From positions 133,518 through 153,347 of the forward strand of contig DAYL01000013.1 of assembly GCA_002508705.1 (NCBI GenBank): DNA of 19,830 nucleotides, in the 5' to 3' direction. The notes below the pieces were generated by a model that was given only the letters and a program-made list of their open reading frames with translations, was not told where the DNA came from and ran no database searches. Of this stretch, positions 4,060 through 19,337 are shown in pieces; position 1 is the first letter of the stretch, and each line of letters opens with the position of its first letter. The translations under genes and the position numbers were made by a program. This DNA comes from Methanoculleus sp. UBA374. Its GTDB lineage: Archaea; Halobacteriota; Methanomicrobia; Methanomicrobiales; Methanoculleaceae.

Positions 4060-4626
4060 ATGAAATCGAGAGATATCGCAATTGTCGGCATACTCCTTGC
4101 CGTAGGGGCCATCATCAGGTACATGTCGCTCCTGATCCCCGGCCCCATCGTATCGAACCTCGTGATCGCCTTCTATAGCCTTGCCATCATCCTCATCGTG
4201 CCCACGTTCCGCGAGGCCCTCGGGATCGGCGTTGTGGCGGGCATCATATGCGCTCTCATCAGCCACTCGTTCTTCCCGCCTGCAAACCTCGTCAGCGAGC
4301 CCATCGGGGCGGTCGTCTGTCTCGGTGCCTACCTGGTGCTCAAGGAGCGCTTTGCTCTTGCCCCGGCCGTGACGACGCTTCTGGCCACATTTGCGAGCGG
4401 GTTTTCCTTCATCATCATCGCGCTCCTCGCCGTGGCCCCGACGATCCTTGGAACCTACGGAACCTTCGAGGCGTTCCTCGTGGTCACCGTGCCGATCGTC
4501 CTCATCACGGCGGCGGTCAATGCCGTCGTCGGGCAGGCGCTTGTGGTGCCGGCGTCGCGGGCTCTGATGCGTGGTGCGCGGCACGCGGCTCCGGCACAGG
4601 GTGCGAGGAAAGTCGATGAGTCCTGA
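4060..4626 (+). CDS. ECF transporter S component (substrate-binding membrane protein)
   Basis: A 188-residue, very hydrophobic protein with about five or six membrane helices and a short basic tail. The opening MKSRDIAIVGILLAVGAIIR and the LIVPTFREALGIGVVAGI segment resemble small S components of energy-coupling factor importers, with some likeness to the TrpP/ThiW-type group. The neighbours settle the role: the fused ECF ATPase overlaps its end by 11 bases and EcfT follows. The substrate (vitamin, amino acid or metal) cannot be read from the sequence, so I give no symbol. The ATG at 4060 has no clear ribosome binding site, but the first residues fit the family start. Confidence 0.78.
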   Translation: MKSRDIAIVGILLAVGAIIRYMSLLIPGPIVSNLVIAFYSLAIILIVPTFREALGIGVVAGIICALISHSFFPPANLVSEPIGAVVCLGAYLVLKERFALAPAVTTLLATFASGFSFIIIALLAVAPTILGTYGTFEAFLVVTVPIVLITAAVNAVVGQALVVPASRALMRGARHAAPAQGARKVDES

Positions 4627-6148
4627 GGCGGGCGAGGGGGGAGCCGTCCTCTCTCTTCGAGACGTCTCCTACACGTATCCCGGCTCCGACTCACCGGCTC
4701 TCGACGGGATCAGCCTCGATCTCCGGAAGGGCGAGATCGTCTTCGTTACCGGCCCTACCGGGGCCGGGAAGACGACTCTCTGCCTTGCCGCGTCCGGCAT
4801 CCTCCACCACGAGTACGGCGGCACGCTTGAGGGCGCGATCACAGTTGCCGGGAAGAACGTCCGGGACTACCGGGGCATGGCAGAGATCGGGAGGCGCGTC
4901 GGCGTGGTTTTCGACGATGCCGACGCCCAGCTCATCTTCACCACCGTTGAGGAAGAGGTGGCATCGGGGCTTGAGAACCTCGGGATCGCAAAAATTGAGA
5001 TGCAGCGGAGGCTCCGCGACGTGATGGAGGCGACCGGGATCGCCGACCTTGCGGATAGGGCCCCCCACACCCTCTCCGGTGGGCAGAAGCAGCGGGTCGC
5101 CATCGCCGCAACCCTCGCCCTGGGAACGGAGATCCTGATCCTCGACGAACCGACCGCCGAGCTGGACGCGGAGGCGACCCGGGCGGTCTCCGCCCTCCTC
5201 CGGCGGCTATCGGATGAGGGAACGGCCGTGCTCATCGTCGAGCAGAAATTCGCCGCGCTTGCCGCAATCGCGGACCGTACGGTCCTGATCGAAGGCGGGA
5301 AGATTGCACGGGAGGGGCCCTCTGCTGACATGATGCCGGACGGCCTCCCGGAGCCGCCGACGGACGGCGCCCGGCACCCGGCACCGGGAGCGGCCCGCCC
5401 GGCAGGGGCGTCTCCCATCATATCCGTCCGGGGGCTCGTCCACCGTTACGACGGCATTGCGGCCCTCCGCGGAGTCGACCTCGAGATTGCTCCCGCCGAG
5501 ATCGTGGCTGTGGTCGGAGAAAACGGGTCGGGGAAGACGACGCTCATCAAGCACTTCAACGGGCTGCTCCATCCCACCGAGGGCAGCGTCTTCGTCGACG
5601 GGCTCGATGCCGCGGCCATCCCGGTCGCAGAACTCGCGCGCCACGTGGGCCTGGTCTTCCAGAACCCGGACACCATGCTCTTCGCGGAGACCGTGGGGGA
5701 CGAAGTGGCGTTCGGCCTCCGGAACATAGACCCGGAGAGCACGGAGGAGCCGGTCGATGCGGCCCTTCGCGAGGTCGGCCTCCTCCACCGGAAGGCGGCC
5801 TACCCGCGGTCGCTCTCGCGGGGCGAGCGGCAGCGCCTGGCCATCGCCTGTGTCATCGCCATGAGGCCGGAGGTGATCGTGCTCGACGAACCCACGACCG
5901 GCCTGGACGCGCGGGAGGCGGCGCGGGTCATGGAGACCCTTTGCCGCCTTGCGGCGGAAGGCCGCACAATCATCATGGTGACGCATGATATGCGCCTTGG
6001 GGAGGAATACGCCGACCGTATCGTCAGGATGGAGCAGGGGAGCATCGTCGGCGACAGGAGAAAGTATGAGGAGGAACCATGCCTGAAATTATGCAGTACG
6101 TCATCCGGGAGAGCGTCTTTCACCGCCTCCACCCGATCACCAAACTGA
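4616..6148 (+). CDS. Fused double ECF transporter ATPase (EcfA1-EcfA2 type)
   Basis: A 510-residue protein with two ABC ATPase domains joined by a Pro/Ala-rich linker at about 243-266; it powers the ECF importer. Domain 1: Walker A GPTGAGKT (46-53), signature LSGGQ (153-157), Walker B ILILDEPT (173-180). Domain 2: Walker A GENGSGKT (301-308), signature LSRGE (400-404), Walker B VIVLDEPT (420-427), H-loop THD (456-458). Domain 1 has Asp at the usual Q-loop Gln (VVFDDADAQ, about 97-105) and Gln where the H-loop His belongs (VEQK, 208-211), and domain 2 has Arg in its signature. These changes all fall in one of the two composite ATP sites. The ATG at 4616 has GAGG at 4605-4608. The last 23 codons overlap ecfT. 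Confidence 0.9.
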   Translation: MSPEAGEGGAVLSLRDVSYTYPGSDSPALDGISLDLRKGEIVFVTGPTGAGKTTLCLAASGILHHEYGGTLEGAITVAGKNVRDYRGMAEIGRRVGVVFDDADAQLIFTTVEEEVASGLENLGIAKIEMQRRLRDVMEATGIADLADRAPHTLSGGQKQRVAIAATLALGTEILILDEPTAELDAEATRAVSALLRRLSDEGTAVLIVEQKFAALAAIADRTVLIEGGKIAREGPSADMMPDGLPEPPTDGARHPAPGAARPAGASPIISVRGLVHRYDGIAALRGVDLEIAPAEIVAVVGENGSGKTTLIKHFNGLLHPTEGSVFVDGLDAAAIPVAELARHVGLVFQNPDTMLFAETVGDEVAFGLRNIDPESTEEPVDAALREVGLLHRKAAYPRSLSRGERQRLAIACVIAMRPEVIVLDEPTTGLDAREAARVMETLCRLAAEGRTIIMVTHDMRLGEEYADRIVRMEQGSIVGDRRKYEEEPCLKLCSTSSGRASFTASTRSPN

Positions 6149-6864
6149 TCTTTGCGGTCGTCGTCGTGGTCCTCGCGGTGCTGACGAGCGACACTGTGAT
6201 GCTCGCGGTCCTTGTCGGCGTGATCGTGGCCGTAGCGGCGGCAGGAGGGCTCGTTCGCGACCTCCTGCGCCAGGTACCCCTGCTCGTCTCGCTCGCGGCA
6301 AGCCTGTTCGTCCTCACCATCCTCACCGTTCAGAGCGGGGAAACTCTCGGCTATCTGGTCCCGCCGGCTGTTCCGGTCATCGGCGGGGCCTTTCCCGTCA
6401 CGATGGGAGCGATCTCTCTTGCGGCCGCGATGTCGCTCCGATTTTGCAGTATGCTCTTTGTCTTCCAGCTCCTGGTCATCTCGACCCAGCCGCGCGACCT
6501 TGTCCACCTTATGGACCGCCTCCGGATGCCCGTGGACTACACGCTCATGTTCCTGATTGCCCTCCGGTTCATTCCGAGCCTGCAGCTTGAGGGAAAACGG
6601 ATCCATGAGGCGCAACTTGCCCGTGCCTATAACCCCGGGAAGGGATTTACCGGGAAGATCCGGGGTCTCTTCCCCATCATCATCCCCCTGGTCTCAAATT
6701 CTCTCGGGAAGGCCACGGTCCTCGGGCTGACCATCGATCTCCGGGGATACCGCTCCGGCCGGCGGACGCCCATGCGCGACCTCGCCCCGGGCAGAGCCGA
6801 TATCGCCGGGATCTTCTGTATGGGCCTTATGGTCGCCGGGTATCTGGCCGTCCTGGTCGTATAA
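6079..6864 (+). CDS. ecfT: ECF transporter transmembrane coupling protein EcfT
   Basis: The 261-residue scaffold that couples the ATPases to the S component. It has a block of hydrophobic helices in the first 110 residues, then further helices, then the cytosolic coupling helices. The first Ala-Arg coupling motif is clear in AQLARAYNPGKG (near 183-194). The second, usually Ala-Arg-Gly, reads IDLRGYR (near 220-226), a Leu for Ala change. A hydrophobic helix closes the protein. Start ATG at 6079 follows GAGGAG (6068-6073) at good distance. It is the last gene of the S-A-T operon, and the order and overlaps imply one transcript and one complex. Confidence 0.9.
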   Translation: MPEIMQYVIRESVFHRLHPITKLIFAVVVVVLAVLTSDTVMLAVLVGVIVAVAAAGGLVRDLLRQVPLLVSLAASLFVLTILTVQSGETLGYLVPPAVPVIGGAFPVTMGAISLAAAMSLRFCSMLFVFQLLVISTQPRDLVHLMDRLRMPVDYTLMFLIALRFIPSLQLEGKRIHEAQLARAYNPGKGFTGKIRGLFPIIIPLVSNSLGKATVLGLTIDLRGYRSGRRTPMRDLAPGRADIAGIFCMGLMVAGYLAVLVV

Positions 6865-8264: not shown

Positions 8265-9383
8265 CTACCTCTTCGTCCCGAATAGGGCGACGATGCACAG
8301 CGCACAGACGAGTGGGACCGCGCCGAATCCCGGCGCCCGGGCTGCAGGGGTTGTTGTCCTTGCGGGTGCCTCAAAGAGGTCCGGGTGAATGTCTCCCGCC
8401 ACCTCCTCGAGGGCGTCCACGATTCGCGGACCTCCCCGGCTGATGATATCGGCGTCGATGACATAAACATGGTTGTTCCTGACCGCTTCCAGGTTCTGCA
8501 TCCGGGACTCGTTCATGAAGTAGTTGTAGATGACGTTCTGTTCCTCTTCGGTCATGCCGGTGCCGGAACTGACGATAATGTACTCGGGGTCCGTGGCGAT
8601 GAACTCTTCAAGACCGACGATGCTCCATTCGTCAACCGAACCGAATGCGTTGGTCCCTCCGGCCATCGTGATAACCTCGTCCTGGAACGTCCCCCGTCCG
8701 CTGACCCAGATCGGGTCATGCCAGACGACATGGGCGACGGACGGCTTTTCCGCCAGATCTCCCGTCTTATCGGTCACTGCCCGGGTGCGGTTCTGGAGGT
8801 CAAGAGCAAGCGCCGATGCCTGTTCCTCCTGTCCGGTTGCCGCTCCGACGAGTTCGATATCCTTCAGGACATCGTCGATAGTCTGCGGGTCGAGGTAGAG
8901 GACGGTCATCCCGAGCCCTCTCAGGCGGTCGATCACCTCCTCCGTGTTGCCGAGCGCGGCAACGACCAGGTCGGGCTCCGCCGCGACCACCCGCTCGAGG
9001 TTGACACTGCTGTAGCCGCCGACCGTCGGTTTATCGGAAGCCTCCGGCGGGTAATTGCTGTAATCGGCGACACCGACGATCCGGTCCCCCAGACCGAGGG
9101 CGTACAGGATCTCGGTGTTGGAAGGGGCAAGCGAGACGATTCTCTGCGGTATTCCCCGGATGACGACGGTCTCCCCGGAGTCGTCGGTCACCGTAACGAC
9201 TCTCCCGGCGGTCTCCGTTGCCGCTGGAGTGAGTCCCCCGGATGAGAGGTTACCTGATTCTTCCGGGGGCGGGACGATGGGGGTGGTGTCTCCGTCAGGC
9301 GCGAGGGTTGCGCCCGCTGCACCAACAGACAGGAACAATGCAATGACCAGGGAGACGGAGACCATCAGGAGCATGTTTCGCAT
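8265..9383 (-). CDS. BtuF/FecB-like ABC transporter substrate-binding protein with PGF-CTERM anchor
   Basis: A 372-residue exported protein that captures a metal chelate, most likely cobalamin/cobinamide or a ferric siderophore, and hands it to the BtuC-like permease encoded upstream. An N-terminal signal segment (about 1-26) is followed by a Pro/Ser/Thr-rich stretch to about 65. The class III binding-protein fold begins with RIVSLAPSNTEILYALGLGD, and DYSNYPPEA matches BtuF-type proteins. The C-terminus is a Thr/Ala/Pro linker, then PGF (351-353), a hydrophobic helix and a final KR: a PGF-CTERM signal, processed by an archaeosortase and replaced by a lipid anchor. It has its own promoter, separate from the permease operon. 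Confidence 0.9.
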   Translation of the reverse strand: MRNMLLMVSVSLVIALFLSVGAAGATLAPDGDTTPIVPPPEESGNLSSGGLTPAATETAGRVVTVTDDSGETVVIRGIPQRIVSLAPSNTEILYALGLGDRIVGVADYSNYPPEASDKPTVGGYSSVNLERVVAAEPDLVVAALGNTEEVIDRLRGLGMTVLYLDPQTIDDVLKDIELVGAATGQEEQASALALDLQNRTRAVTDKTGDLAEKPSVAHVVWHDPIWVSGRGTFQDEVITMAGGTNAFGSVDEWSIVGLEEFIATDPEYIIVSSGTGMTEEEQNVIYNYFMNESRMQNLEAVRNNHVYVIDADIISRGGPRIVDALEEVAGDIHPDLFEAPARTTTPAARAPGFGAVPLVCALCIVALFGTKR

Positions 9384-9487: not shown

Positions 9488-10153
9488 TTATCCGCTACCG
9501 GGGCTGTGATCCCCGATCGCGTCGCCCGGCGAGGTAGATCCGTCGAGCCGGACCCGGGTGTAGGTCATGTCCATATCCACAGATATCGCATCCCAGAGCC
9601 GGTCACAGATCGTCAGGCGCTGCGAAGCGGGAAGCATCGCGCTCCGTATTCTGTAGCACCGGACGATGTCCCGGTAATGGCCTCTTGTAAAGAAAGGATC
9701 GCGGTTCGGCGGCGTCAGGATGAAGAGGTGTGTCCTGGTTGCGGCAAGCATCGCCTGCATGTTGAAGGCGCAGGCCGTCTGAATATCCGCGAGTGAGAAT
9801 GAACTCCCGAGAGGGTGGTTGTGGAGAAATATCGTCTGGAAAAGGCGAAATCGGTCCCGGTAATCGAACTGGATTGCTGCCCGCTCGCCTTTCAGGCAAA
9901 AGAGCAACTGCCCGGCCGGATCGAAGACGTATGCATATTCGCGCGGCCGGTCTTTTATATCCAGAGCATACGCAATAAGTTGCTCGTCCGTCGGACCGCC
10001 CCGGGGCAGGAAAGCCCGGTTGGCGGCCAGATCCGCGGTCTGCTGTCCTGCCCCGCAGGGTGAATGCGCGGGGTATGCGGGCCGGCGGTGCTGCAAGAGC
10101 GTGTCCTCTCTCTCCTCTCTGTCGGCGCCCGTGGTTCTGCAGCGGTGGGTCAT
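9488..10153 (-). CDS. JAB/JAMM-domain protein (putative metalloprotease fold) in the importer operon
   Basis: A 221-residue protein with a JAB/JAMM-like motif HNHPLGSSFSLADI: His111, His113, Ser120 and Asp123, with Glu90 as a possible catalytic acid. JAMM proteins bind zinc and cleave isopeptide or peptide bonds, or act as RadC-like proteins. Here the spacing between the His pair and the Asp is one residue shorter than in the RadC-type HNHPxGxxxPSxxD, a form I recall from phage- and plasmid-type JAB proteins. The first 50 residues are Arg/Ala rich and uninformative. The ATG overlaps the upstream ATPase stop as ATGA, so it belongs to the permease-ATPase transcript. The role in transport is unknown. 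Confidence 0.68.
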   Translation of the reverse strand: MTHRCRTTGADREEREDTLLQHRRPAYPAHSPCGAGQQTADLAANRAFLPRGGPTDEQLIAYALDIKDRPREYAYVFDPAGQLLFCLKGERAAIQFDYRDRFRLFQTIFLHNHPLGSSFSLADIQTACAFNMQAMLAATRTHLFILTPPNRDPFFTRGHYRDIVRCYRIRSAMLPASQRLTICDRLWDAISVDMDMTYTRVRLDGSTSPGDAIGDHSPGSG

Positions 10154-11391
10154 GCCGTCTCCCTGAGGATCTGCAGCACCCGGTCGACCCGTTCCGCCTC
10201 GACCGCCCCCCGGTCGAGCAGCCCGCGAACGATCGCTTCGGCCTCACCTCCGGTGAAATCCTGAAACGATTGGGTTTTGCTGTTGAGGAGTATAATGGGC
10301 TTGTTCCGGCGGCGCTCCAGTATCCGGATGTTCTCGATATTGCCCCATCCTATGGGCATTGCCGTGATGACGACGGCATGCGCCTCGTCGATGCACCGCT
10401 CAAGTTCGCTTCTGGCATCGGGAGAGATCGCGCAGAACGGCGCCTCGGCGACGCAGGGTATTCCCAATGCCGTTACCGTTGCATAGTCGGTGTCGAGGAC
10501 CGTGAGCACGCCGGCACTCACCCGGAACCCCTCCTTGTGGAGGGCGTAGAGGAGATCGGACCCCATACCCCCGCCGCAGACGACATGCACCCTCTCCGTC
10601 GGCCGATCTTTTGCGGTGCGTTCGTATATCGGGAGGACATAGGGCCTCCCTGTCAGCGGATGCGGTTTTACCAGTGCGTCGATCCCGTATACCGCCTTGA
10701 GCGTCTCCCGGGTCAGCACATCTTCAGGCTCGCCGACGGCAACAATCTTCTTCTCTTTGAGCATGATCAGGCGGTCGCAGTAGCAGGCGGCCAGGTTGAG
10801 GTCGTGGAAGACGCTGATTACCGTGACGCTTCCGGTGAGGTCTCTGATGATGTTGAGGATCTCGATCTGATGGCTGATATCGAGGTTCGAGGTGGCCTCG
10901 TCGAGCAGCAGGACCTTCGGTTCCTGCGTGAGCGCCCGGGCGATGAGCACCCGCTGCCGTTCGCCGCCGCTGATCTCGTGAACCGATGAATCGGCAAGGT
11001 GCGCGACGTTTGTGAGGTGCATGGCGCGGTCACAGACCTCCAGGTCCCGGGCGGTCTCGGAGGAGAGCCTCCCGATATAGGGGTGCCTCCCCATCATGAC
11101 GATCTCCCGCACGGTATAATCGAAACTGATCGCGATATCCTGCGGCACAACGGCGATCTGCTGTGCCAGCTCCCGGAAATTGAAGGTCGCAAGGCTCTGG
11201 TCGTTGAGGCGGACTTCTCCGGAATCCGGAGCGACGATCCGGCTCATCGCTTTTAAGAGCGTCGTCTTTCCCGACCCGTTCGGTCCGATGATCCCGAGGA
11301 TCTCGCCTTTATCGGCATAAAGTGAGATCGCCTCGAGGATCTTCTTTGCGCCGTAGGAGACGTCGATATTGATGATCTCGACCGATTTCAT
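10150..11391 (-). CDS. BtuD/FepC-like ABC importer ATPase with C-terminal nucleotide-fold domain
   Basis: A 413-residue ATPase for import of cobalamin or iron chelates. Residues 1-255 are a complete ABC domain: Walker A GPNGSGKT (36-43), Q-loop VVPQD (81-85), signature ISGGERQ (140-146), Walker B LLLDEA (161-166) and H-loop His196. From about 266 a second domain starts with VHVVCGGGMGSDLLYAL, a Rossmann-like glycine loop, then AGVLTVLDTDYATVTALG, EAPFCAIS and VVITAMPIGWGN. Similar tails occur on BtuD-like ATPases of other archaea as I recall; the function is not established. The start at 11391 overlaps the permease stop (ATGA). The frame stays open to 12213, antisense to the permease, which I read as a shadow. 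Confidence 0.9.
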   Translation of the reverse strand: MKSVEIINIDVSYGAKKILEAISLYADKGEILGIIGPNGSGKTTLLKAMSRIVAPDSGEVRLNDQSLATFNFRELAQQIAVVPQDIAISFDYTVREIVMMGRHPYIGRLSSETARDLEVCDRAMHLTNVAHLADSSVHEISGGERQRVLIARALTQEPKVLLLDEATSNLDISHQIEILNIIRDLTGSVTVISVFHDLNLAACYCDRLIMLKEKKIVAVGEPEDVLTRETLKAVYGIDALVKPHPLTGRPYVLPIYERTAKDRPTERVHVVCGGGMGSDLLYALHKEGFRVSAGVLTVLDTDYATVTALGIPCVAEAPFCAISPDARSELERCIDEAHAVVITAMPIGWGNIENIRILERRRNKPIILLNSKTQSFQDFTGGEAEAIVRGLLDRGAVEAERVDRVLQILRETA

Positions 11392-12401
11392 GCTTTCATC
11401 CGGCTCCGCAGAAGGTAGATGAAGAACGGTGCGCCGAAGCAGGCGGTCAGGATCCCGACCGGCATGTCGCCGGCAAACGTCCGCGTGAGCGTATCGGACC
11501 AGACGAGGAGGATGCCGCCTGCAAGGGCGGCAGCGGGGAGAAGGATGCGGTGGTCGGGTCCGACGATCAGGCGCATCACGTGGGGTGTGACCAGACCGAC
11601 GAACCCGATCGCTCCTGCGATGGAGACCGCTATGCCCGTCAGGAACGCGCTCACAAAGAGGAGGATCTGCTTCAATCGTTCGACGTTCACGCCCAGGTGA
11701 ATCGCATCCTCTTCCCCGAGCGAGATGATGTTGATGTCGCGGGCGTAGAGGTAGATGGCCACGCACCCTATCGGGATGAGGATGGCGACGAAGACGTCGT
11801 CCCACGAGACGTTCCAGAACCCTCCCATCAGCCAGAACATGATCTGGTGGAGGCTCCGGCCGGAGGTGTACATGAGGAAGGAGAGGAACGCGGAGAGGAG
11901 CATGGAGAGGGCGACGCCGGAGAGCAGGAGCGTCTCGACCGGGATCTTCCCGCCCTGGCGGGCGATGGTGTAGACGGTAAAAGTGGCGATTGCCGCCCCC
12001 ACGAATGCGAAGATCGGCAGTCCTGCACCCGCGAAGAGGACGATCGAGAGTGCGGCTCCGAGTGAGCCGCCGGCCGAAGTGCCGAGGATGTAGGGGTCGG
12101 CCATGGAGTTCTTGAACAGCCCCTGCATGGCCGTACCTGCTACGGCAAGCGCGCACCCGACCAGCGCTGCTGCAATCGCCCGTGGGGTCCTGATCTCCCA
12201 GAGGATCATCCAATCGGCATCATATCCGAGCGGACGGATGATGAGGCCGGTCTCCGGGCTCCAGATGATCGTCCAGGTTATCTCCGGGTTGAAGAGCGAC
12301 CAGATCGAGATACTGGTCGGTCCGAGGGCGACAGCAAGGATCATGCTGGCGAGAAGGATGCAGATGAGGATCGGGACTGCAATCAGCCTGCGTCTGGACA
12401 T
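11388..12401 (-). CDS. BtuC/FecCD-like ABC importer permease
   Basis: A 337-residue integral membrane protein of the FecCD family, usually ten helices, forming the channel for cobalamin or iron-chelate uptake. The opening helix is followed by LFNPEITWTII and then WEIRTPRAIAAALVGCALAVAGTAMQGLFKNSMADPYILGTSAG in the classical family arrangement (R(T/L)PR...G..L...G...Q...NPLA.P..LG...GA). Near the end, GLVTPHVMRLIVGPDHR matches the conserved GL..PH..R...G.DHR coupling loop that touches the ATPase. It heads a three-gene unit with ATGA overlaps. The start at 12401 lies just downstream of a TATA element and a palindrome. Confidence 0.92.
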   Translation of the reverse strand: MSRRRLIAVPILICILLASMILAVALGPTSISIWSLFNPEITWTIIWSPETGLIIRPLGYDADWMILWEIRTPRAIAAALVGCALAVAGTAMQGLFKNSMADPYILGTSAGGSLGAALSIVLFAGAGLPIFAFVGAAIATFTVYTIARQGGKIPVETLLLSGVALSMLLSAFLSFLMYTSGRSLHQIMFWLMGGFWNVSWDDVFVAILIPIGCVAIYLYARDINIISLGEEDAIHLGVNVERLKQILLFVSAFLTGIAVSIAGAIGFVGLVTPHVMRLIVGPDHRILLPAAALAGGILLVWSDTLTRTFAGDMPVGILTACFGAPFFIYLLRSRMKA

Positions 12402-13697: not shown

Positions 13698-14735
13698 TTA
13701 GATGAGTTTAAAGAACGGGTGAGTGTCGACCTGGGTGTCGATGCCGAGATCTCGCACCGCTTCCAGCACAACGATATCCACATAGGCCTGTGCGGTGATC
13801 ATCGCCTCGACGTTCTCGATCGGGCCGTACATGATGAGGTCGGCGCCGAGCGTGCTTGCAACCATGTTGCAGCCGATATCGGGCGCGGACCAGGCCGCCT
13901 GGCGCATACCGTCCGTCCCGCCGAGGTAGTGGTGCGTGAGCTGCTCGATGAGCGCGTCTTTGCCCTCGAGGCCGGCCAGCTGCTGCGACGGGGTCTTCTT
14001 CGTTCCCTTCCAGCGCTTCAGCCAGGTCCAGGAGACGGTCATGTTGTGGTAGGCGCCGCCGGTGGGGAGACCGTGGATTGCCTTGCAGGCAAGGATCTCA
14101 CGGTACGAGCCGCCGGAGCCAAGGCCGAGCGGGGTCGCTGCGGTATCGAGGATCGGGCGGGTGATGCCGCATTTCTCTGCGATATCGAGCATCCCCATCT
14201 CCTGTCCGGCAACGCCTCCCTCGGTGAGCACCTTCTCGCGTCCGGAGACCGACGGGTCGCCGGGGTTGAAGGCGAGGACGATTGCTGCGTTTACGTCGCT
14301 CTTTGCCAGGGCCTCCATGTTCTCGGGCAGGATCGAACCGTTGATGGAGTTGTAGATCGCACGGTCGGCGACGCCTGCCTCGGTGACGTACTGGCATGCG
14401 TGTGCAAGCGCCTTGGGTTCCGACGAGTCCATCAGGAACGCGGTCTTGTCATCGATGCTGCAGAACCAGTCGATGTAACTATCGAAGGCTTCAGCGTGTT
14501 CGGCAATCATCTGGATGAAGTGCGGAATGCCGGTGATATCCGAGAGTTCCTGGCAGCGGTTCCAGAGCCCCTCTGCCTTTACCTTGTCGATCTTTCCGGT
14601 GTGGTCATCCAGAACAACTTCGTGCTTGTTGTAGAAGATGGATGCACCGAGCACGGTCGGGTATTCTCCAGGCTGCCCGCCGATCTTGGTACCGTTGAAG
14701 TCGTGTACCGTCTGCTCTTTTTCGAACTTGAACAT
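13698..14735 (-). CDS. mtrH: Tetrahydromethanopterin S-methyltransferase subunit H
   Basis: MtrH is the soluble TIM-barrel methyltransferase that takes the methyl group from N5-methyl-tetrahydromethanopterin and gives it to the Co(I) corrinoid of MtrA. Family marks are plain: MFKFEKEQTVHDF start, GGQPGEYPTVL, AFLMDSSEPKA, VADRAIYNSINGSI, AAIVLAFNPGDPSV, PLGLGSGGSYREI, GLPTGGAYHNM, YGPIENVEAMITA and the final HPFFKLI. The product is 345 residues, a little longer than many MtrH proteins. The ATG at 14735 is preceded by GGAGG (14746-14750) with a 10-base spacer; an in-frame TTG at 14744 is too close to it. It is the last gene of the operon. Confidence 0.96.
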   Translation of the reverse strand: MFKFEKEQTVHDFNGTKIGGQPGEYPTVLGASIFYNKHEVVLDDHTGKIDKVKAEGLWNRCQELSDITGIPHFIQMIAEHAEAFDSYIDWFCSIDDKTAFLMDSSEPKALAHACQYVTEAGVADRAIYNSINGSILPENMEALAKSDVNAAIVLAFNPGDPSVSGREKVLTEGGVAGQEMGMLDIAEKCGITRPILDTAATPLGLGSGGSYREILACKAIHGLPTGGAYHNMTVSWTWLKRWKGTKKTPSQQLAGLEGKDALIEQLTHHYLGGTDGMRQAAWSAPDIGCNMVASTLGADLIMYGPIENVEAMITAQAYVDIVVLEAVRDLGIDTQVDTHPFFKLI

Positions 14736-14750
14736 ATTCGTCAATCCTCC

Positions 14751-15494
14751 TTACAGGTACCCCATCAATTTGGGTAGTAATACCAACAACATCATGAATA
14801 CAATCAAACCTGCGACCAGTCCGTACAGGATGCCGATATCGCGTCCGATCTTTCTTCCGACACGCTGGGCAATCTCTGCATCGACGAACTCGATCTTCTC
14901 CTCGATGGCGTTGAGCCGTTCTTCGATCTCAAGGAACTGCGGGTTCGCGCCTGCAACGGCAACTCCCGTTGTGCCGGCACCGCCCGCTTCCTTGACCTCG
15001 ACGACCATGGGTTCGGCCGAAAACGCACCGGGGTCTCTGGCCTTGAGTTCATCGATCTTGGCCTTGATGGTGCCCATGTCCTCGGTTTCCATGATGTTGA
15101 CGACCTCGACCTGGTCCTGGAAGCGCTTGATCGCTTCATCGGAGAGGTTCTCGATGAACGGGATGGCTCCCTGGGCCCCGACGATCTTGCCGCCGGCGAC
15201 TCCGCCGGAATGGAGGGCCATAAAACTCTGACCGGACAGGTGTCCCTTAACCTCCGTGCCGCAGCAGAGGATGAACCTGATGTTTGGGTCGGAGATGACG
15301 TTTGCGATGATCTTCTCAAGGCCGAGGTTCTCGGTCTTGCAGGACCCGGTGATTGCCGCTCCGGCATCGCAGATGCCCTGTTCGTCGAGATGGGAACCCA
15401 TGGTGACGACGCCGACGCAACTCTGTGGATCTCCCGTGTGGAAGTCGCCCTGAACGATCGGCCATCCGCTGGCCGGTGATTTTTTCTCGGCCAT
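14751..15494 (-). CDS. MtrA corrinoid domain fused to MtrG-like membrane segment (second MtrA copy)
   Basis: A 247-residue protein. Residues 1-174 are a full MtrA corrinoid-binding domain, including [12 protein letters not shown] with His85, equivalent to the lower cobalt ligand of MtrA. After a [10 protein letters not shown] linker, residues 186-247 match Mtr[38 protein letters not shown] and a single C-terminal membrane helix. It lacks the C-terminal helix of MtrA itself and sits exactly where mtrG is expected, between mtrF and mtrH. No other mtrG is present in the operon. It is therefore best read as MtrG carrying an added MtrA domain. The start follows the mtrF stop by one base, with GGGGGCGATC as ribosome binding site. 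Confidence 0.9.
14973..15494 (-). repeat. Near-identical DNA repeat, copy 1 (corrinoid domain of the MtrA-MtrG fusion)
   Basis: Codons 1-174 of the fusion gene match codons 1-174 of mtrA (15918-16439) without gaps. The proteins differ at 12 positions by my alignment (2, 24, 49, 66, 69, 92, 96, 100, 129, 131, 132, 165). The DNA is also nearly identical at silent sites; 15001-15060 and 15946-16005 differ at two bases. Similarity ends abruptly after the GGAG codons. Confidence 0.85.
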
Positions 15495-15495
15495 G

Positions 15496-15708
15496 TTAGA
15501 TCGCCCCCAGCATCAGTGCCGGAATCACGATCAGGAGCATGGCTACGGCGAGCCCGACTGTGAACCCGATGATTCCCATGCCCATGATCCCGGATTCGAG
15601 TTTGTTCGTGCGGGCAAGGATCTGTGCCTTGTACCGGATGGAGTTCATCATTGCATTGATTGCAGCCATCCGGATGGGGCCTGCTGCCTGTGTAGTTTCT
15701 TCTGCCAT
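15496..15708 (-). CDS. mtrF: Tetrahydromethanopterin S-methyltransferase subunit F
   Basis: A 70-residue subunit with a short soluble N-terminal part and one membrane helix at about 42-67. Segments [20 protein letters not shown] and [12 protein letters not shown] fit MtrF, which resembles the N-terminal part of MtrA/MtrB-associated small subunits of the Mtr membrane complex. The ATG at 15708 has GGGGTGAG (15713-15720) just upstream. It stands between mtrA and the MtrA-MtrG fusion, as in the standard operon order. Confidence 0.92.
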
Positions 15709-15713
15709 TTATC

Positions 15714-16439
15714 TCACCCCAGCAAGATGAACCCCATAATTACGAACGAGACGATGAGGCCGATCATGAGCCCCTCGATCTTACCCGAGTAGACACCGGC
15801 GGCAAACCTGTCGCGGTAGCCGATATCGGTGACCATCCGCTCGATGACTTTCATCCGTGCGTGTATCAGTGCCAGTTCTCCGGTGAGCGGCTGCACTTCG
15901 CCGGTTGCTTCTTCCTCTCCAGCACCGCCCGCTTCTTTGACCTCGATGACCATGGGTTCAGCCGAAAACGCACCGGGGTCTCTGGCCTTGAGTTCATCGA
16001 TCTTGGCCTTGATGGTGCCCATGTCCTCGGTTTCCATGATGTTGAGGATCTCGATCTGGTCCTGGAAGCGCTTGATCGCTTCGTCGGAGAGGTTCTCGAT
16101 GAACGGGATGGCTCCCTGGGCCCCGACGATCTTGCCGCCGGAGACACCGCCTGCGTGCAGGGCTATGAAACTCTGGCCGGACAGGTGTCCCTTAACCTCC
16201 GTACCGCAGCAGAGGATGAACCTGATGTTGGGATTGGAGATGATGTTTGCGATGATCTTCTCAAGGCCGAGGTTCTCGGTCTTGCAGGACCCCGCGATTG
16301 CCGCTCCGGCATCGCAGATACCCTGCTCATCGAGGTGGGAACCCATGGTGACGACGCCGACACAACTTTCTGGATCTCCCGTGTGGAAGTCGCCCTGAAC
16401 GATCGGCCATCCGCTGGCCGGTGATTTTTTCTCAACCAT
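15714..16439 (-). CDS. mtrA: Tetrahydromethanopterin S-methyltransferase subunit A (corrinoid protein)
   Basis: The canonical MtrA: 241 residues, a soluble cobamide-binding domain (1-174) and a single C-terminal membrane anchor (about 218-240). Its corrinoid carries the methyl group from MtrH to coenzyme M, and the conformational change is thought to drive sodium export by Mtr[13 protein letters not shown] contains His85, the cobalt ligand equivalent. The linker is acidic ([15 protein letters not shown]), followed by [23 protein letters not shown], typical MtrA. The ATG at 16439 follows GAGGTGA (16444-16450); an in-frame GTG at 16448 lies inside that site and is rejected as start. Confidence 0.96.
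15918..16439 (-). repeat. Near-identical DNA repeat, copy 2 (corrinoid domain of mtrA)
   Basis: Partner of the repeat at 14973-15494, same orientation, offset 945 bases. Between the two lie the C-terminal anchor of mtrA and the whole of mtrF. Recombination between the copies would delete those or make a single chimera. Confidence 0.85.
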
Positions 16440-16449
16440 GTTCTTCACC

Positions 16450-16734
16450 TCACAGCAGTCCTAATACGACGACACCGGCAACCAGAAGGCCAATTGCCAT
16501 GCCGTACCAGAATGCGGTCACGCTTCCGGCGATTTTCAGAACACCCTCCCTGTTCGGGAACGATGCGAGGAAGTTGCCCTCTCCGGAGAGCATACCGACC
16601 AGGTCGTCGGTGATCTTCTCGAGTTCCGCTACCTGCTCGAGCACGGGGGTGTACGAGACACCGGCGGTGGTGACGACGCCGACTATCGGGTCGGCAACCA
16701 GCCCGAACTCAGGCAGTACCTGAATGTATGCCAT
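16450..16734 (-). CDS. mtrB: Tetrahydromethanopterin S-methyltransferase subunit B
   Basis: A 94-residue Mtr complex subunit. It begins [21 protein letters not shown], typical of MtrB, has a short helical middle ([16 protein letters not shown]) and ends in one membrane helix (about 71-94). GGGAGGTG (16741-16748) precedes the ATG. The stop codon of mtrC ends directly before its start, with no gap. Confidence 0.94.
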
Positions 16735-17586
16735 TCAGGCACCTCCCTTTGGCTCAAGGATCGGCTTTGCGTCGAGCCATGCATAGGCATCACGTTTTGC
16801 AAGCGCGATGTACTGCGTGTAGGTGTAGATCCACCCGATGACCGAGACCACCAGCGAGACGAGAGCGGGAAGGAATTCGATGAATGCGAACGAGATGACT
16901 GCAATGGGGATCATGGAGAGGAATCCGCATTCTGCAGCGAGCATCAGCGTCCGGTCCTGCTTCTCCCCCGGCCCGAGGCAGGCGTTGAAGGAGTGCTGGA
17001 TGGCGATGGCGCCGAGCATGAAGATGACGGCAATGATGCTGCCACCGATGAGAGAGTATTCGTAGGTCTGCACGGTGAACCCGAGGATCGCGATCTCACC
17101 GGTGATCATGCCGAGGAACCCGAACGTTCCGCAGGCCATGGCTGCGAGGCCGAGCACGGTCATCGCACCGACGACTGCAAGTTCGATCAAGGAGGTGACC
17201 ATGACCGGAATGTCCATCCGGACTACGTGGTTTGCCATGATCCCGGCGACCGCACCGATGATCGCGGCGATGATGATCGTCACGATAGGCGCGAAGATGC
17301 CGGTCGTGGCTCCGAAGAGCGCGGCGATGACGCCGGACCCGAGCGCGATCATACCCGCCGACGGGACACCGGTGCCGAGACCGTAACTGCAGAGGTACTT
17401 GATCGTGTCGGTACCCCAGAGGAGTGCGGCCACGGCGGCGAGTCCGCCGAAGAACGAGAAGTACTGGGTCTGGGTGACCTCATTCAGGAGCGTCAGATAG
17501 ATGAAGACGAGCGATCCCACGAGCCCGTAGATCAGGATCCGGTTGTGGGGGATGCCGCCTGCTCCTACTTCAACTTTAACCGTCAT
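16735..17586 (-). CDS. mtrC: Tetrahydromethanopterin S-methyltransferase subunit C
   Basis: A 283-residue integral membrane subunit with about seven or eight hydrophobic helices. With MtrD and MtrE it forms the membrane core; recognised segments include GTDTIKYLCSYGLGTGVPSAGM and GVIAALFGATTGIFAPIV. Near residue 200 GAIAIQHSFNACLGPGEKQDRTLMLAAECGF is family-typical, as is the closing TYTQYIALAKRDAYAW. The start abuts the mtrD stop. A Gly/Ala-rich make-up fits tightly packed helices. Confidence 0.95.
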   Translation of the reverse strand: MTVKVEVGAGGIPHNRILIYGLVGSLVFIYLTLLNEVTQTQYFSFFGGLAAVAALLWGTDTIKYLCSYGLGTGVPSAGMIALGSGVIAALFGATTGIFAPIVTIIIAAIIGAVAGIMANHVVRMDIPVMVTSLIELAVVGAMTVLGLAAMACGTFGFLGMITGEIAILGFTVQTYEYSLIGGSIIAVIFMLGAIAIQHSFNACLGPGEKQDRTLMLAAECGFLSMIPIAVISFAFIEFLPALVSLVVSVIGWIYTYTQYIALAKRDAYAWLDAKPILEPKGGA

Positions 17587-18438
17587 TTAGAATACCCCCA
17601 CCAGTTCGAGCAGCGCGATCGAAAACATGCCTGCAACGGCGGATGCCACGGCGGCTGCAATGACCGCTCTCGGGAACCGCTTGAACTTGGGGTCGTGCGG
17701 CCCCTCGATCGTACCGGTGATGTTGTATGCGGAAAGCACGGCAACGATCAGGAATATGCCAATCGTGAAGACACCGGCAAGCGAGACGGCGACGGGTGCA
17801 ATCTGCTCGACCGTTGTGCTCAGGATGACGGGCAACTGTGTCTGGTAGACGCTGAGGAGCTCGAGGTAGATGAGCGTTCCGCCGAGGCCGCCGAGTGCGC
17901 CGCCGACGACGCCGCCGATCCAGGACGTGAACGGGAGACCGTGCCCCTCGGTACCCTGGCTCTTGTACTCGGGGAAGGTGTCGCCCGTGATCGGGTCCTT
18001 TGCGACCTTACCGGAAGCTGCCGGGATGCCCATGCCGAAGACGTAGATGATGTTGACCATCGTACAGGTGATTGCCATCAAGAGTCCGCCGCCGACCGCA
18101 CCGCCGGCGAGAGCGATACCGAACCCGAGCGGGGCGGCCCACGCTCCGCCGAAGAGTCCGGCAAGGCCGGCACCGGCGGCGAGCATCGGCACACCGGTCG
18201 CAATACCGGGCGCCTGTCCCATTGCTGCGGGCGCACCGCCGACCGGGACGAAGTGGACGCCGAACCCGACCAGGACGCCGCCGATGATGATGCCGATGAC
18301 GGCAAGCACTCCGGTCATCTGTATCAGGAAATAGGCGAGCACAATCGCGACGATGATAAGTAGAATGCTGATAACGAGGCCCATCCCCGTCGGGGGCTGG
18401 ATGCCTGAAGTCTGTTTTGGTCCGCCGAGCGCCGTCAT
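17587..18438 (-). CDS. mtrD: Tetrahydromethanopterin S-methyltransferase subunit D
   Basis: A 283-residue membrane subunit, six or so helices, Gly/Ala rich. The segment IIIGGVLVGFGVHFVPVGGAPAAMGQAPGIATG and the DPITGDTFPEYKSQGTEGHGLPF loop are classic for MtrD. The soluble loop probably faces the cytosol near MtrA/MtrH in the complex. The first 25 residues (ALGGPKQTSGIQPPTG) are polar. Its ATG overlaps the mtrE stop by the ATGA arrangement, implying coupled translation. Confidence 0.95.
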   Translation of the reverse strand: MTALGGPKQTSGIQPPTGMGLVISILLIIVAIVLAYFLIQMTGVLAVIGIIIGGVLVGFGVHFVPVGGAPAAMGQAPGIATGVPMLAAGAGLAGLFGGAWAAPLGFGIALAGGAVGGGLLMAITCTMVNIIYVFGMGIPAASGKVAKDPITGDTFPEYKSQGTEGHGLPFTSWIGGVVGGALGGLGGTLIYLELLSVYQTQLPVILSTTVEQIAPVAVSLAGVFTIGIFLIVAVLSAYNITGTIEGPHDPKFKRFPRAVIAAAVASAVAGMFSIALLELVGVF

Positions 18439-19337
18439 GATGATGCCTCCTCAGAAGGAGCTGTGTAGGGCCCGAAGGTCTTTCTTGCCCAGACCTCGAT
18501 GTAACGGTCGATGATGGCAAAGATCAGGATAATAACGATACCGACGATGACCGCTCCCCATCCGGCGGCGAGCGGCTCGAAGACCACGGTACGCCAGAGT
18601 TCAAAGAAGACGATCAGACCGAAACAGATACCCGACGCAGGGCCGCCGAGTTTCGCGCTGAAGAACCCGTTGTCAAGTGAGTTTCTCTGTCCGGCCTCGG
18701 CGTAGCGGACGATGTTGCCGGATGCAGAGATCGGGACACCGGCTCCGAACTTCTGCTCCTGGTACTGCCGCTCTTTTCCGTAGAACGGGTTACCGGTCGC
18801 CGACCCAGCTGAACCGAGTGCGATACCCCATACGAGCCCGAGAAGCGGGAGCGGGAAGGGGTGGCCGAGCGCGCTGATGATCAGGTGACACATCGCGACG
18901 GTGGTGAAGATGGCCACGAACGCATGCGCCATGGTCACGGTTGTCATCGACTTCAAGATGTCGATATAGACCGGCTGTCCGAATTTTGCGAGACTTGCAG
19001 TACGGCCGAGGTATGCGGTTGTCGCATAGATGCCCTGCACGAAGACCGCGAGAGCGCTCCCGAGCACAATTGCAAGTATCGGGTTTATCTGCATCGCCAT
19101 GAATGCCCAGGCAAGGCCTGCACCCAGAGCAACCCACAGGCCGTACGCGGGGGGTTCACCGGCAACTGCCTTGTTAAAGATGCGGTGAATATACCCCATT
19201 TGCGGAGCGAGCTGAACCTGAGAGTTCGGGTCACCCTGTGATCCGATGTCAGACTCAGTGTCTTCCGCAGCGCCGGCAACGGTTGCAAGAGCACCTGCCA
19301 ATGCGGTAATGCCGATGCCAAATATAATCTCTTCCAT
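18435..19337 (-). CDS. mtrE: Tetrahydromethanopterin S-methyltransferase subunit E
   Basis: First gene of the mtr operon; 300 residues. MtrE is the large membrane subunit thought to contribute the sodium path. An N-terminal helix is followed by an acidic soluble loop (EDTESDIGSQGDPNSQVQLAPQMGYIHRIFNKAVAGEPPAYG), a strong family mark, then several helices and YGKERQYQEQKFGAGVPI, then a last helix and a charged tail. AGGAGG (19345-19350) lies 7 bases before the ATG. Upstream lie a hairpin and a TATA box of its own, so mtr can be transcribed apart from mcr, though read-through from mcrA is possible. Confidence 0.96.
   Translation of the reverse strand: MEEIIFGIGITALAGALATVAGAAEDTESDIGSQGDPNSQVQLAPQMGYIHRIFNKAVAGEPPAYGLWVALGAGLAWAFMAMQINPILAIVLGSALAVFVQGIYATTAYLGRTASLAKFGQPVYIDILKSMTTVTMAHAFVAIFTTVAMCHLIISALGHPFPLPLLGLVWGIALGSAGSATGNPFYGKERQYQEQKFGAGVPISASGNIVRYAEAGQRNSLDNGFFSAKLGGPASGICFGLIVFFELWRTVVFEPLAAGWGAVIVGIVIILIFAIIDRYIEVWARKTFGPYTAPSEEASS

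Follow-up and report, generated by a model that had tools for sequence, protein, structure and literature searches.

The mtr operon in the window (the whole stretch of Methanoculleus sp. UBA374 DNA that was analysed, 19,830 nucleotides) carries, in the place of mtrG, a single gene in which an MtrA corrinoid domain is joined to MtrG, and a canonical mtrA is retained upstream of it. The reading that we consider likely is that this fusion serves both as MtrG and as a second methyl carrier, so that each protomer would hold two interchangeable carriers; its assembly into the complex, its cobamide loading and its role in turnover we infer from the gene and its relatives. Mtr is the sodium-pumping methyltransferase that performs the energy-conserving step of methanogenesis from CO2, and the Methanomicrobiales include common biogas methanogens. 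At stake is whether this ion pump runs with two mobile carriers per site: a whole order has a second corrinoid domain on the stalk, whereas the available Mtr structures come from species with one carrier per protomer. The fusion is the Methanomicrobiales mtrA-2b, already known and published in 2015 (Wang et al., PMC4632066). Beyond the 2015 description, the present analysis contributes a prevalence count, the invariance of the B12 site, the constraint on the copies after conversion has lapsed, and an insert in MtrH.

A complete operon, E-D-C-B-A-F-[A-G]-H, occupies the minus strand between 19337 and 13698. Its genes and the features within them are as follows.

18435..19337, minus strand: mtrE (PF04206)
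17587..18438, minus strand: mtrD (PF04207)
16735..17586, minus strand: mtrC (PF04211)
16450..16734, minus strand: mtrB (PF05440, E 4.3e-31; aligns from residue 1 with 9qtp_E)
15714..16448, minus strand: canonical mtrA, mtrA-1 (TIGR01111, 343.8 bits against a cut-off of 249; likely start ATG 16439)
16185-16187, minus strand: codon of the ligand His of canonical mtrA (from the sequence)
15496..15708, minus strand: mtrF (PF09472, E 8.2e-20)
14751..15494, minus strand: mtrA-mtrG fusion gene, mtrA-2b (uninterrupted 247-codon frame, 247 aa)
14979..15485, minus strand: MtrA corrinoid domain of the fusion, residues 4-172 (Pfam PF04208, E 2.9e-84)
15240..15242, minus strand: His85 codon of the fusion, predicted lower axial cobalt ligand (gtg on the plus strand, CAC on the coding strand)
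15024..15038, minus strand: RDPGA in the fusion, a variant of the connectase-cut motif KDPGA (motif from PMC10154401)
14781..14942, minus strand: MtrG part of the fusion, residues 185-238, stalk helix and membrane anchor (PF04210, E 2.9e-23)
13698..14744, minus strand: mtrH (PF02007, TIGR01114; matches 9qtp_o; probable start ATG 14735, 345 aa)
13908..13985, minus strand: MtrH insert typical of the order, about residues 251-276 counted from MFKF (from alignment)

The sequence-only reading had proposed an MtrA corrinoid domain with His85 joined to MtrG in mtrG's place, and one frame, between mtrF and mtrH, indeed matches both PF04208 and PF04210. The MtrG match is nearly complete (positions 10-63 of 64 of PF04210), and the fusion scores above both NCBIfam cut-offs, TIGR01111 for mtrA and TIGR01149 for mtrG. 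The canonical mtrA, said to be kept two genes upstream, is there with its ligand His, and its product is complete and has its own membrane anchor; the profile matches across the operon genes likewise bear out that the operon has no stand-alone mtrG. The fusion is 70% identical to canonical MtrA over 240 residues. Its full-length matches in Methanoculleus records are 83-92% identical, and its corrinoid domain matches the solved MtrA chains with E values of 5e-70 to 3e-59.

The MtrG part aligns with solved chains from other lineages (9qtq_S and 8q3v_G) and retains the conserved GRDIGILYG segment of the MtrG helix and the membrane anchor. At the N-terminal strand, with which stand-alone MtrG takes part in the MtrB-F-G sheet, the profile match of the fusion starts at position 10 as against 1-4, but a 13-residue segment of the fusion is in register with the VVVDPxDFNEV of stand-alone MtrG; nearly all of MtrG thus appears to survive in the fusion. 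A five-model structure prediction (mean pLDDT 68.8) gave the MtrA fold and one long helix from residue 185, with low confidence over residues 169-207, and a Foldseek search with the model returned the MtrA crystal structures 5l8x/5laa at target TM-scores of 0.86-0.88. From DPG to the GRDIG helix the fusion has 60-63 residues and from DPG to IGY MtrA-1 has 50-53, leash lengths that are only roughly comparable, GRDIG and IGY being different landmarks. MtrA, B, F and G all have their N-termini at the cytoplasmic end of the stalk (PMC10998594). Since MtrG and MtrA both enter the stalk from that end, the fused and the canonical domain would share one side. The M. mazei complex has an extended sheet built from the N-termini of MtrB, F and G, in which the N-terminal strands of MtrB dock the MtrH dimer (PMC12774963).

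We looked for the same arrangement in 232 genomes of the order of Methanoculleus sediminis (genome G001, locus L004), taken as Methanomicrobiales. An MtrG match at E <= 0.001 occurs in 179 of the 232 and is absent from 53; each of the 179 has exactly one, and a second match at this threshold was not seen. Judged from these genomes, it is therefore unlikely that the window's organism has a separate mtrG elsewhere. Of the 179 MtrG loci, 120 were read: 97 are intact, 20 are partial (16 at contig ends, three at N gaps, one with a frameshift) and three end in the linker, where the contig ends. The fusion that the sequence-only reading had suggested seeking in Methanomicrobiales mtr operons is, then, present intact in 97 of 120 loci, a count that is incomplete, the 59 MtrG places outside the 120 including contig-start fragments and three frames of 203-244 aa. 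The weak MtrG scores of two genomes (G046, G142) belong to fragments in which the contig ends inside the MtrG part. An mtrH match was found in 185 of the 232 genomes, which is consistent with many drafts being without the whole operon. Outside the order, the MtrG matches listed from a sample of 392 genomes of the phylum lie in frames of 73-143 aa, and all 30 of the best-scoring loci have a stand-alone MtrG with one MtrA within about 3 kb.

Near-identical MtrA domains break assemblies, and N runs and contig ends fall within them. N runs lie inside the fused MtrA domain at L187, L200 and L211 and inside the canonical one at L137 and L161; at L187 and L200 stretches of the canonical domain are missing as well, and L198 has a frameshift. 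These apparent cases of degenerate or trimmed fusions were read as assembly faults. Natural trimming of the fusion was not seen among the 120 loci: at least part of the MtrA domain precedes MtrG in 117, and the other three stop at a contig end. As N runs and contig ends fall inside the near-identical domains, the counts of mtrA, mtrF and mtrG in the order's draft genomes are probably too low. At four of the 120 loci (L144, L167, L175, L211) mtrB is followed directly by the fusion, with neither the MtrA-1 anchor nor mtrF between them. No MtrF match was found in these four drafts, and only G185 among them shows another MtrA piece, located where a different contig ends. The missing canonical mtrA and mtrF likely reflect collapse of near-identical repeats, since collapse in a short-read assembly predicts exactly this B-[AG]-H product; a real deletion by recombination between the MtrA repeats would give the same one.

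The two MtrA domains within a genome evolve in concert. Both domains were complete in 87 pairs, namely the window and 86 of the 120 loci, the other 34 being left out as incomplete; a fusion replacing mtrG with canonical mtrA kept can thus be read whole in the window and 86 other genomes. Identity between the domains averages 97.2% at the amino-acid level within genomes and 78.4% between genomes. In a maximum-likelihood codon tree of the 87 pairs, same-genome copies are sisters in 68 (in 56 the support is 0.9 or more), the window pair among them with support 0.99; the remaining 19 include lapsed lineages and close relatives. Raw identity places the window's paralog, at 92.9% over 168 residues, level with its best orthologs (92.9 and 93.5%), and in 23 of the 87 pairs the paralog is surpassed in similarity by the closest ortholog. 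Base identity is 0.92-0.97 in every 12-codon bin along the MtrA domain, and in an ungapped comparison the next three 5-codon bins past the domain end give 0.79, 0.53 and 0.38. With identity down from 0.92 to less than 0.4 over these 15 codons, homogenisation is largely confined to the corrinoid domain. For a Methanomicrobiales species the 2015 paper puts the identity of its two MtrA domains at 92.4%, which it attributes to gene conversion (PMC4632066). Conversion between the domains has lapsed in the lineages represented by L178, L181, L159, L160, L189, L191, L134 and L135.

The cobalamin site is retained in both copies. Residue 85 is His in all 87 fusion copies and all 87 canonical copies, and His85 of the fusion corresponds to His84 of M. 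marburgensis MtrA. Contact residues named in PMC4915002 were mapped onto the window with a shift of zero for Asp17 and Ile111 and of one residue for 52-84; Asn82 of that paper, a backbone contact, is Lys83 in the window. Ten positions, D17, K53, T54, E55, N56, G58, N65, K83, H85 and I111, are invariant in both copies of all 87 pairs, out of 63 invariant columns among 168. The pocket positions Tyr18 and Val61, hydrophobic neighbours of the base in PMC4915002, vary. No column of the corrinoid domain separates fused from canonical copies (168 sites, 87 pairs): the largest difference between copies, 0.115 at residue 142, was reached by 20 of 300 label swaps, and residue 9 on its own was reached by 14 of 2000, which is not significant over 168 sites. 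The sequence-only reading had offered doubled methyl loading, alternation between the carriers and a stand-by copy; these are all candidate roles, and the lack of copy-specific residues argues weakly against specialised ones.

Gene conversion alone could keep the copies alike, so that in most genomes the conservation of the fused copy does not count as evidence of its own, and for this reason the lapsed lineages are the informative cases. In four genome pairs (L178/L181, L159/L160, L189/L191, L134/L135) the two copies of a genome have diverged to dS 0.71-1.62 and dN 0.065-0.099, and dN/dS between copies is 0.04-0.12. Between orthologs of the same four pairs, dN/dS is 0.03-0.06 for the fused copy and 0.04-0.08 for the canonical one. 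By these ratios both copies are constrained in the lapsed lineages, and the fused copy is not consistently freer. The invariance of the B12-site residues, together with purifying selection where conversion has lapsed, supports the view that both corrinoid domains are functional.

With the fusion acting as MtrG and second carrier, its C-terminal helix would replace MtrG in the central MtrABFG stalk, where MtrG helices form a three-helix membrane seal, and its N-terminal domain would be a second B12-carrying MtrA domain on a flexible leash. Two carriers per protomer, attached to the MtrA and the MtrG anchor respectively, would make six per trimer; these would serve the active sites of MtrH, of which the M. 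mazei complex has six, as well as the three MtrCDE cavities. The operon has a single gene each for C, D and E, so the cavities would remain three and six carriers need not raise turnover.

Three other explanations were weighed. That the fused frame is an artefact of assembly or annotation has practically no chance of being right, and we consider it refuted. Near-identical copies do break assemblies, and in many records N gaps, contig ends or probable collapses interrupt the MtrA domains, but the window's two copies differ at 12 of 168 residues and 6.3% of bases (DNA identity 93.7%), 97 other genomes have the fusion intact, many of them on contigs of >1 Mb, and it was published from complete genomes (PMC4632066). 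The assembly artefact that the sequence-only reading had named as fatal to its proposal is thereby set aside by the intact loci of those other genomes. It is improbable, though less so, that the gene is kept for the essential MtrG helix while its corrinoid domain, structural or on stand-by and with no carrier role of its own, is maintained by conversion from mtrA-1. The gene is the sole source of MtrG seen and so cannot be lost, and conversion between the MtrA domains is frequent. Against such a passive role, the copies that have escaped conversion are strongly constrained, the fused orthologs as described above and with the ten contact residues kept, and among the 120 loci no fusion trimmed of its MtrA domain was seen.

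The anchors might also exchange corrinoid domains, if connectase or a related activity cut the (K/R)DPGA motif of both copies and rejoined the domain to either anchor. Connectase does cut MtrA at KDPGA, between D and P, at the junction of the catalytic and membrane parts, and reversibly (PMC10154401), and DPGA is retained in both copies of all 27 pairs from genomes with a connectase match. The motif does not discriminate, however, being present in both copies in 55 of 59 pairs without such a match; the connectase family (PF09894) matches in only 73 of the 232 genomes of the order; and the window's motif has R, not K, before DPGA. At this candidate site both window copies have an 11-residue segment followed by (V/I)VE, and K and R each occur in the order. 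DPGA is lost from the canonical copy in one lapsed lineage (G116, G118) and from the fused copy in another (G204, G208). We regard such exchange as very improbable, and a carrier on each of the two anchors as the better account.

MtrH of the order is longer by an insert of about 26 residues, which all 40 order loci measured have and none of 30 loci outside the order has. The spacing from WxWLK to PDIG is 37-43 residues in all 40 and 11-17 in all 30 outside; five further order loci, with MtrH frames of 341-343 aa and no recognised start, stand outside the 40. The insert follows the positive patch Arg239/Lys242/Lys243 (M. mazei numbering) at the exit of the active-site cavity (PMC12774963), and none of the papers listed by a literature search names it. 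Its role may lie with the second carrier or with the order's own pterin, and recognition of the pterin tail would explain it equally well. The insert co-occurs with the fusion, yet this amounts to one origin event. In the M. mazei complex three MtrH dimers provide six MtrH for three MtrA, and binding of MtrA to the membrane-distal MtrH was considered unlikely there for steric reasons (PMC12774963). A more elaborate proposal is that Methanomicrobiales Mtr is a double-carrier pump in which six corrinoid domains match six MtrH sites, the MtrG-anchored domain serving the membrane-distal MtrH and the insert being part of the remodelling. We find this doubtful; the match of six carriers to six MtrH is arithmetic, not evidence.

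The published mtrA-2b shares with the window's gene its domain order, its location between mtrF and mtrH, the upstream mtrA-1 and the homogenised MtrA domains, and its authors call both MtrA paralogs essential, citing another study (PMC4632066). There is no difference of kind between the two, and the window contributes another member. The 2013 study behind the essentiality is said to concern Methanococcus maripaludis, hence the A-F type. Later papers from 2018 (PMC6053082) and 2023 (PMC9982363) cite Wang et al. 2015. A related arrangement, mtrA-2a, is an MtrA-F fusion of the Methanococcales and Methanocella arvoryzae that likewise places a second MtrA domain on a single-helix stalk subunit, but its partner is MtrF, its gene lies between mtrA-1 and mtrG, and its origin is given as independent (PMC4632066). 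The [AF]F operon of TACK archaea resembles the fusion in joining an MtrA domain to an MtrF-like anchor; there, however, mtrA is fused with a duplicate mtrF, and no doubled carrier is described in the excerpts of PMC9982363. The solved Mtr complexes (8Q3V from M. marburgensis; 9QTQ/9QTS from M. mazei) share the corrinoid domain with the fusion and differ from the window in having one MtrA per protomer and a stand-alone MtrG. A term search found neither 'fusion' nor 'fused' in the main texts of the two cryo-EM papers on Mtr, and none of the papers listed by our literature searches presents a purified Mtr, biochemistry or a structure of the complex from Methanomicrobiales.

Profile comparison relates the MtrA-1 anchors of the order (81 sequences) to MtrF (90), with a probability of 81-86% and E of about 1e-6, and gives 2% or less against MtrG (78) and MtrB (118). 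With an anchor thus related to MtrF, canonical MtrA itself looks as if it had arisen earlier by joining this corrinoid domain to an MtrF-like anchor, a view that fits the [AF] operons of TACK archaea (PMC9982363). The A-G fusion would then repeat that solution, this time with MtrG.

The window also holds transporter genes. Beside the mtr operon lie genes for a Peripla_BP_2 binding protein, a FecCD permease and an ABC ATPase (8265-9383, 11388-12401 and 10150-12213, minus strand), which resemble systems for the uptake of B12, haem or iron chelates; B12 as the substrate would suit a corrinoid-demanding enzyme. Farther along, at 4060-6864 on the plus strand, is an ECF-type transporter, whose parts are a membrane protein resembling TrpP, a double ABC ATPase and a protein of the CbiQ family.
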